NCBI GenBank assembly: GCA_015064445.1
Contig: SVSE01000007.1
Coordinates: forward strand, 31,828-95,827
Direction of reading: 5' to 3'
Length of the DNA stretch: 64,000 nucleotides
Source: Oscillospiraceae bacterium
GTDB lineage: Bacteria > Bacillota > Clostridia > Oscillospirales > CAG-272
Position 1 is the stretch's first letter, and each line of letters begins with the position of its first letter. Positions 10,093 through 63,491 of this stretch are shown here, piece after piece. The notes beneath the pieces are model-generated. The model made no database searches. It was not told the origin of the DNA and worked only from the letters and a program-made list of their open reading frames with translations. Position numbers and translations under genes: made by a program.

Positions 10093-10521
10093 ATGGATAT
10101 TCTTGAAAAGGTAGCTTATATTAAAGGACTTGCAGAGGGACTTAGCCTCGATGCTACAAAGCCTGAGGGCAAGGTTCTTAGCGCAATTATCGACCTTCTT
10201 GGCGATATTTGTGAGGCTGTTGCTGACATCGATGATGAGGTTGCAACTCTCGGCGATTATGTTGAAGAGCTTGACCATGACCTTGGCGATGTAGAGGAAG
10301 ACCTCTATGCAGACGATTGCGATTGTGACTGCGACTGCGATTGTGATTGTGACTGCGACTGTGATTGCGACTGTGATTGCGATTGCGATTGTGACGATGA
10401 TCTCGTTGAGGCTATGTGCCCAAACTGTGGCGAGAGCGTAACATTCGTTAACGATATCGACTTGGCAGATGTTGTTTGCCCAGCTTGCAAGAAGGCATTC
10501 GCTGATAACGACGAGGAATAA
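10093..10521 (+). CDS. CD1247-N-terminal-domain-like protein with poly(Cys-Asp) tract and C-terminal CxxC pairs
   Basis: MDILEKVAYIKGLAEGLSLDATKPEGKVLSAIIDLLGDICEAVADIDDEVATLGDYVEELDHDLGDVEEDLYA, then 13 Cys alternating with Asp, then MCPNCGE...VCPACKKAF. Confidence 0.85.
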   Translation: MDILEKVAYIKGLAEGLSLDATKPEGKVLSAIIDLLGDICEAVADIDDEVATLGDYVEELDHDLGDVEEDLYADDCDCDCDCDCDCDCDCDCDCDCDCDCDDDLVEAMCPNCGESVTFVNDIDLADVVCPACKKAFADNDEE

Positions 10522-12460: not shown

Positions 12461-12488
12461 GGGGCGCACCTCTTGGTGCGCCCTTTTT
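12461..12488 (+). terminator. Rho-independent terminator
   Basis: GGGGCGCACCTCTTGGTGCGCCCTTTTT. Confidence 0.8.
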
Positions 12489-12800
12489 AGCAAGTAGGGA
12501 CTCAACCACACTTGCCTAAACCGTGTATTTGCGGTTTATAGTGCACTTGACCTATTTGCTATCTACCTTTAGCGCCTTTGGCAGACTTGCTTCTTGCAGT
12601 ATGAAATACAGCGGTGTCGCAATTCTACCAAAATCATCTAAAAATACATCGGTTTAGGTGCTTTGCAATTTCGAGTAAGCCAAGCGGCTTACAGGCAAGG
12701 CACAAAAATCGAAGTCAATTAACAATTTACAAGATTTTTTAACGCAGTATGTAGGGCGTTTGGCTACTCCAAATCAAGTGTGGCTGAGTCCTACCTGCTA
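12488..12800. mobile_element. MITE-like non-coding element, copy B (about 313 bp)
   Basis: Near-perfect terminal inverted repeats TAGCAAGTAGGGACTCAACCACACTTG (12488-12514) / CAAGTGTGGCTGAGTCCTACCTGCTA (12775-12800); nested inverted repeats inside; no convincing ORF. Confidence 0.82.
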
Positions 12801-12818: not shown

Positions 12819-14132
12819 ATGGGACTTATTAAAGCAATATTTGGAGCAACAGGTGGAGTTCTCGCAGATCAGTGGAAGGAATATTTCTATTGCGACTCTC
12901 TTGATGCAGACACTCTCGTTGTAAAGGGACAAAAGCGCGTAAACAAAAAGCGCTCATCAAATAAAAAAGGAGATGAGAATGTCATCTCAAATGGCTCGGT
13001 TATCGCAGTTGCAGACGGTCAATGTATGATGATTGTCGAGCAGGGAAAGGTAGTCGAGGTAAGTGCAGAGGCAGGCGAATTCGTATGGGATAGCTCAACA
13101 GAGCCAAGCGTATTTGCAGGTCGCTTTGGAAAGAGCCTTGTTGATACCTTTAAGGCAATCGGTAGACGCTTTACCTTTGGTGGCGACACAGGCAAGGACC
13201 AGAGAGTTTACTACTTCAACACAAAGGAACTTATCGGAAACAAATATGGCACAGTTAATCCTGTTCCTTTCCGTGTAGTTGACAACAATATCGGTCTTGA
13301 TATTGATATTTCAATAAGATGTAATGGAGAGTTCTCCTATCGTCTTTGCGACCCAATCCTTTTCTATACAAATGTTTGTGGAAATGTTGAGAGTGCTTAT
13401 ACTCGTTCAAGCCTTGATAGTCAGCTAAAAAGTGAGCTTTTGACAGCACTTCAGCCTGCGTTTGCAAAGATTTCTGCAATGGGAGTAAGATACTCAGCAC
13501 TCCCAGGACATACAGAGCAGATTGCTGACGCACTTAATGAGGCTCTTGATGAAAAATGGCAGAAGCTTCGTGGTATTGAGGTGTCCTCATTTGGTATTAA
13601 CACAGTTAATGCCTCAAAGGAAGACGAGGATATGATAAAGGAGCTCCAAAAGAGAGCTGTTATGAGAGATCCATCAATGGCTGCTGCAACTATGGTTGGC
13701 GCGCAGGCAGATGCTATGAAGGCTGCTGCATCTAATGAAAATGGCGCAATGATGGGCTTTATGGGAATGGGAATGGCTCAAAACGCAGGTGGAATGAATG
13801 CGAATCAGCTTTTCCAAATGGCTAATGCACAAAGCCAGCAATCACCAGCAAAGGCTCCAGAGCAATCTGGCTGGAAATGCACTTGCGGAGCTACTAATAC
13901 AGGCAAATTCTGTGTTGAATGTGGCTCGAAAAAGCCTGAGGAAAATGGTTGGAGCTGTGCTTGTGGCTCAATAAATAAGGGCAAATTCTGCTCTAATTGT
14001 GGAGCGAAAAAGCCTGCTGGCGCGCCTCTTTATAGATGCGATAAGTGTGGATGGGAGCCACAGGATCCAAAGAATCCACCAAAGTTCTGCCCTGAATGTG
14101 GCGACATATTCAACGATTCTGATATAAAATAA
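12819..14132 (+). CDS. SPFH-domain (YdjI-like) protein with C-terminal zinc ribbons
   Basis: MGLIKAIFGATGGVLADQWKEYFYCDSLDADTLVVKG...; C-terminal WKCTCGATNTGKFCVECGSKKP / WSCACGSINKGKFCSNCGAKKP / YRCDKCGWEP. ATG at 12819 follows AAGGAGA. Confidence 0.87.
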   Translation: MGLIKAIFGATGGVLADQWKEYFYCDSLDADTLVVKGQKRVNKKRSSNKKGDENVISNGSVIAVADGQCMMIVEQGKVVEVSAEAGEFVWDSSTEPSVFAGRFGKSLVDTFKAIGRRFTFGGDTGKDQRVYYFNTKELIGNKYGTVNPVPFRVVDNNIGLDIDISIRCNGEFSYRLCDPILFYTNVCGNVESAYTRSSLDSQLKSELLTALQPAFAKISAMGVRYSALPGHTEQIADALNEALDEKWQKLRGIEVSSFGINTVNASKEDEDMIKELQKRAVMRDPSMAAATMVGAQADAMKAAASNENGAMMGFMGMGMAQNAGGMNANQLFQMANAQSQQSPAKAPEQSGWKCTCGATNTGKFCVECGSKKPEENGWSCACGSINKGKFCSNCGAKKPAGAPLYRCDKCGWEPQDPKNPPKFCPECGDIFNDSDIK

Positions 14133-63344: not shown

Positions 63345-63487
63345 CCTTAAACCTAATTTTTATTCTTGTTAAAAGTACGATTCTTACTTTGAAAAATTAG
63401 GTTTAAGGCGTCCTGCGATTTCGAGTAGCCAAATTCGGTATAGAACAAGGCAAAAAATCGCAGTCAATTAGGCAATTTACAAGATTT
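63345..63487. repeat. MITE-related segment, copy C, upstream of tmRNA
   Basis: Perfect 17-bp inverted repeat CCTTAAACCTAATTTTT (63345-63361) / AAAAATTAGGTTTAAGG (63392-63408); GC.ATTTCGAGTA.GCCAA...ACAAGGCA.AAAATCG.AGTCAATTA..CAATTTACAAGATTT shared with 12661-12739. Confidence 0.75.
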
Positions 63488-63491
63488 ATTC

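Follow-up and report, generated by a model that had tools for sequence, protein, structure and literature searches.

The 313-nt sequence at positions 12488–12800 of the window (the whole 64,000-nt stretch of DNA analyzed here) is very probably, with an estimated probability of about 0.8, one copy of a large and old family of non-autonomous, MITE-type fold-back elements from a mostly uncultured order of gut Clostridia. Comparison of genomes shows the element to be mobile and to insert into intergenic DNA, as judged from its presence and absence at orthologous sites. Each copy may be regarded as approximately two ends joined back to back, in which a terminal stem of ∼27 bp closes two hairpin arms of ∼110 nt. 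Such an element, having no enzyme of its own, would be moved in trans by a recombinase other than a DDE_3 transposase of the IS630/Tc1 type and would usually enter at TA; its fold may be kept through recognition of the folded single strand or cruciform, through template switching between the arms, or through both.

Position, ends, and fold of the element

The element and the features around it in the window are the following.

1152–1247, + strand: solo 3′ fragment of a relative, 89% identical (G000:C10:32979-33074)
12462–12483, + strand: terminator hairpin of the upstream Gfo/Idh oxidoreductase gene, outside the element; the equivalent place in genome G003 has a terminator hairpin and no element
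12488–12800, + strand: the entire mobile element (313 nt, of the long subfamily), with further copies in this genome and in the genus and a vacant orthologous site in G003
12488–12514, + strand: 5′ terminal inverted repeat, one strand of the terminal stem, from repeat search and fold
12515–12665, + strand: 5′ hairpin arm (CCTAAACCGTGTATTT ... AAATACATCGGTTTAGG) together with a short following linker, from fold and covariation
12666–12775, + strand: 3′ hairpin arm, the basis of the R1 model and better conserved than any other part of the family; double changes at 29 of 36 pairs, a figure reached by 0 of 500 shuffles
12716–12733, + strand: apical hairpin of the 3′ arm, at whose loop, or just before it, the solo 3′ fragments found elsewhere start
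12775–12800, + strand: 3′ strand of the terminal stem, with TA at its end
12819–14132, + strand: downstream SPFH/Band 7 gene, outside the element (Pfam PF13421, E 4e-15)
63414–63490, + strand: diverged internal fragment, 81% identical, ending directly before the tmRNA gene (G000:C10:95241-95317)

The upstream terminator abuts the element directly, 18 nt separate the end of the element from the ATG at 12819, and the ORF list and translations contain no convincing ORF inside 12488–12800. The earlier note had placed an ORF-free element with inverted-repeat ends at these coordinates, between the terminator and the SPFH gene, and all of its features lie where it put them. The element does not imply a function for the SPFH gene.

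At the ends, TAGCAAGTAGGGACTCAACCACACTTG (12488–12514) pairs with CAAGTGTGGCTGAGTCCTACCTGCTA (12775–12800) with few mismatches and one 1-nt gap, giving terminal inverted repeats of ∼27 nt in which repeat search finds a 17-nt core of 94% identity. Folded as single-stranded DNA, the element reaches −59.3 kcal/mol, compared with −34.7 ± 4.2 kcal/mol for 100 dinucleotide shuffles (z = −5.9), none of which folds as well, and in this layout the inverted repeats form a terminal stem that closes two hairpin arms. The nested repeats described previously, CCTAAACCGTGTATTT/AAATACATCGGTTTAGG and GTAAGCC-AAGC-GGCTTAC, are present in the sequence, although in the covarying fold the GTAAGCC strand has the downstream GTTTGGCTACTC as its partner and not GGCTTAC.

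Elsewhere in the window, the fragment at 1152–1247 sits just before the start of its downstream gene in an apparent arginine-biosynthesis operon. Positions 10093–10521, just after the elongation factor P gene, hold an ORF of 142 aa in which a long Cys-Asp repeat (CDCDCD...) precedes a zinc-ribbon-like segment.

Copies, empty sites, and target

The host genome (G000, 1.77 Mb) contains one further near-complete copy, 86% identical (G000:C6), and several fragments. With two nearly full copies in all, its complement looks like a remnant of past activity. BLAST detects relatives of the element in 11 of the 29 genomes of the genus, and R1, a covariance model built on the 3′ arm, matches in 14 of them. 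Matches to R1 number 36 in G004, 32 in G007, 26 in G021, and 19 in G008, but some of these are 5′ arms of the same copies and contigs often break within elements, making the true copy numbers uncertain. The presence of dozens of copies in some genomes, many of them near-identical, indicates recent spread. Beyond the genus, R1 matches occur in 20 of the 71 genera sampled in the family and 28 of 170 genera of the order; those relatives that have names are assemblies of gut Clostridia from deer and sheep, together with 'Oscillospiraceae bacterium' SIG635. Neither BLAST against phage and plasmid records nor a pattern search of viral contigs gave a match.

Most copies are intergenic, several stop 10–20 nt short of a start codon, and no recurrent neighbor gene was found beside them. 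The length is about 270–290 nt in most copies across genus, family, and order, chiefly 274–285 nt (312–318 nt in the subfamily of the window), and the arm layout is likewise constant across the order.

Six copies have orthologous sites lacking the element: those at L082, L139, L124, L138, and L002, from a genus-wide search with the flanks joined without it, and the copy in the window. For the latter, the same oxidoreductase–SPFH gene pair occurs in G003, 79% identical, with only a short spacer between the genes, no element, and no R1 hit. At L002 the empty site AAGGTAGGTGC, compared with AAGG[TAGC...GCTA]GAGGTGC, is consistent with insertion at TA; elsewhere the intergenic flanks have diverged too far for an exact target duplication to be read. 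Where copies are adjacent they have exactly one dinucleotide in common, as in GC-TA-GC (L090) and GGC-AT-GCC (L066, L136), and the TA may belong to the repeat itself and not to the target. The TA at both ends that had been noted for the window copy is usual among copies of the genus and family, but it does not extend to two order-level groups, which end in AGGGCG or GACTGAT.

The many copies, terminal inverted repeats, intergenic sites, presence or absence at orthologous positions, and lack of coding capacity together uphold the description of the element as MITE-like. The earlier note had set against its own reading an absence of other copies, or a sequence always present with a conserved RNA structure; the copies and vacant sites found here contradict both.

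Incomplete forms also occur. Four solo 3′ fragments in G000 and G018 each lie just upstream of genes; by BLAST the start lies at element positions 234–237, within the apical loop of the 3′ arm, in three of them and at 217 in the fourth, and a looser local alignment carries one of the three back to 217. Breakage at the tip of an extruded hairpin would explain the starts of these few fragments. At L358 (G007:C9:2100-2800, about 281–360) a mini version of ∼75 nt keeps the TAGCAGAG ends and lacks the 3′ arm.

Pairing in DNA as the sequence drifts

The terminal stems of different copies have little sequence in common, and within each copy both ends match (TAGCAGAGAGAGACCCAGTTGAACCCCG, TAGCCTTACGGGAATCGAACCCGTTTG, ATGCCTTACGGGAGTGAAACGAACCAG, and GTACCCTTACTGGGGTCGAACC). 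In the alignment of 3′ arms 97.7% of cells are paired, compensatory double changes occur at 29 of 36 pairs, and 113 cells carry double changes compared with 35 in shuffles; that the tested structure comes from this very alignment favors it somewhat. On each of the five pairing and covariation measures the alignment exceeds all 500 shuffles, and sliding the partners by one column reduces the covariation score from 0.57 to 0.07. The 5′ arms are unalignable between subfamilies, and covariation there is based on fewer sequences. That the 5′ arm is an inverted copy of the 3′ arm is supported in some subfamilies, such as TAGCC; the same proposal for the copy in the window was not supported.

Selection on an RNA would tolerate G-U on the sense strand and not A-C, and non-Watson–Crick cells were therefore counted in alignments whose pairs were defined with G-U forbidden. 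The elements contain 46 G-T and 45 A-C cells (44 and 41 on the opposite strand), whereas RNase P RNA of the same genus, the positive control, contains 36 and 3 (4 and 32 on the opposite strand). The terminal stem alone, across genus, family, and order, gives 55 and 61, and the 3′ arm alone 20 and 16. An earlier form of the test scored 1x1 mismatches in individual noGU folds; RNase P RNA did not pass it as positive control, and the alignment-based test took its place. The near equality of G-T and A-C in the elements, unlike RNase P RNA, indicates that pairing is maintained at the level of DNA and not as RNA.

This result bears directly on the reading of the sequence as a fixed structured RNA, acting in cis or in trans, upstream of the SPFH gene. 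Its strong fold, its covariation, and the several copies ending 10–20 nt ahead of a start codon are what such an RNA would display, but the orthologous SPFH site in G003 lacks the element, G-U is not in excess, co-directional copies split 16:11 by orientation, and no Rfam family matches over the element, so that a structured RNA is extremely improbable and, as a fixed regulatory leader, is refuted by the empty sites and the G-U test. Pairing at the DNA level is predicted both by recognition of a folded strand and by template-switch homogenization of inverted repeats, and the G-T/A-C counts do not tell these causes apart. Homogenization alone, leaving a fold that is unrecognized and has no role, is plausible but less likely than not: the process is described for inverted-repeat arms (PMC8604942, PMC7202029), it predicts the equal counts of G-T and A-C, and the differences between near-identical copies in G007 include clusters of changes within the terminal stem. 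However, homogenization should erase internal loops, and yet loops persist together with their sequences, as in AAGGCA opposite AACGCAG; it also faces a length and arm layout that are constant throughout the order. The persisting loops and constant length favor some selection, as far as can be reasoned from them.

Three observations lie beside this argument. TAGCC-type terminal stems have an identical 17-nt stretch (TACGGGAATCGAACCCA) in common with the T-arm of tRNA-Glu (G000:C4:92060-92082 and G000:C5:33716-33738, L346 and L347; element ends in G001, G004, and G021). Many other stems bear a T-loop-like TTCR motif; an origin of the element ends from tRNA was set aside, since presence and position vary among the ends. 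Outside the element, at a contig end in G003 (G003:C9, L012:2848-2966), Rfam STnc490 matches with 57.5 bits against a gathering threshold of 56.

Candidate enzymes and comparison with known repeats

The earlier note had likened the pattern to IS630/Tc1-mariner MITEs, in which TA is duplicated and a related insertion sequence acts in trans, and had pointed to an IS630-family transposase with matching ends as the partner to seek. Most copies in the genus and family carry TA at each end, one empty site fits TA duplication, and neighboring copies have TA in common, all in keeping with this assignment. It nevertheless appears improbable and was not supported, since the DDE_3 domain is absent from all 29 genomes of the genus, including those with more than 30 element matches, end sequences vary widely between copies, and the two order-level groups lack terminal TA. 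An enzyme of the HUH/Y1 class (IS200- or RAYT-type) that recognizes hairpins in single-stranded DNA, as for REP/REPIN, would suit the hairpin architecture, and Y1 genes, present in 12 of the 29 genomes, are found in 8 of 14 carriers vs 4 of 15 non-carriers. This association is weak, however: Pfam Y1 gave no match in G000, G007, G008, G011, or G021 (the last only 53% complete), a group that includes three of the most copy-rich genomes, the sole Y1 gene beside a copy, in G004, is interrupted by that copy, and REP sequences measure 20–40 bp (PMC3733652). A Y1/RAYT partner was accordingly rejected as a candidate and is judged unlikely.

The searches for a mobilizing enzyme in the genus identified none. 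No transposase recurs among the neighbor proteins of the elements, and in the regions covered the scans with end sequences recovered copies, isolated ends, and forms with internal deletions, but not a longer, autonomous version. In G314, a pair facing outward at a distance of 3.5 kb was rejected as a long element, being two ordinary copies that flank housekeeping genes. No autonomous partner with matching ends was found in the genus data; one may lie outside them. Several accepted bacterial MITEs also lack an autonomous partner.

Bacterial MITEs are normally thought to be recognized through conserved end sequences bound by a transposase. The present family keeps its length and fold over many genera while its ends drift, so that recognition of small mobile elements as folded DNA becomes testable. 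A tentative proposal, which we consider possible though rather doubtful, is that mobility throughout the order depends on the folded shape of one strand and not on its sequence, the shape being recognized by an undescribed enzyme while the ends drift freely and covary. The order-wide model also permits annotation of these repeats, which at present break assemblies and could pass for RNAs.

No earlier description of the family was found in the literature searched, coverage of which was incomplete. Base-paired, intergenic, non-coding repeats with TA ends and no proven transposase are known, among them ERIC, Correia, and CIR, and for RUP an IS630 partner has been proposed (PMC2229807, PMC10969869). 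The Clostridia element is the same kind of object, differing in its closed two-arm architecture, its drifting and covarying ends, and its distribution. Like it, the enterobacterial ERIC/IRU/RU-1 sequences are intergenic and highly base-paired with TA termini, and for ERIC a target duplication is reported, together with ends for which that account gives no insertion-sequence similarity (PMC2229807). ERIC differs in measuring 127 bp with 7 bp of contiguous terminal pairing (PMC2229807), compared with ∼280–313 nt, a ∼27-bp stem, and two arms, and in its unrelated hosts, whereas the ends of the Clostridia element drift between copies. RUP of Streptococcus pneumoniae and Correia/NEMIS of Neisseria likewise have TA-ended terminal inverted repeats and many intergenic copies (PMC2229807), but both differ in size and architecture, and the RUP ends match IS630-Spn1 whereas the Clostridia genus has no DDE_3 gene. 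CIR of Caulobacter and Brucella has two long inverted-repeat arms and a linker (PMC2229807) but lacks a terminal stem closing both arms. REP/REPIN with RAYT are also mobile DNA hairpins (PMC8266576, PMC3116915), but REPs are only 20–40 bp and Y1 genes do not track the Clostridia elements. Integron attC sites offer a functional analogy only, in that folded single-stranded hairpins are recognized (PMC6393395) and shape is conserved more than sequence; the Clostridia element would form a much larger three-way fold, and its copies are scattered and not arrayed.

Two individual copies lie at a transposase gene and an apparent recombinase gene. At L116 (G004:C175, 706–1110) the copy lies within a Y1/RAYT-type gene, with GGCGGATATGGAATCCGCC palindromes nearby that are probably the REPs of that gene. 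At L097 (G014:C20, ∼920–1090 in the reverse complement of the locus) a shortened form, which is the sole match in G014, begins inside the last codons of an apparent tyrosine recombinase gene.
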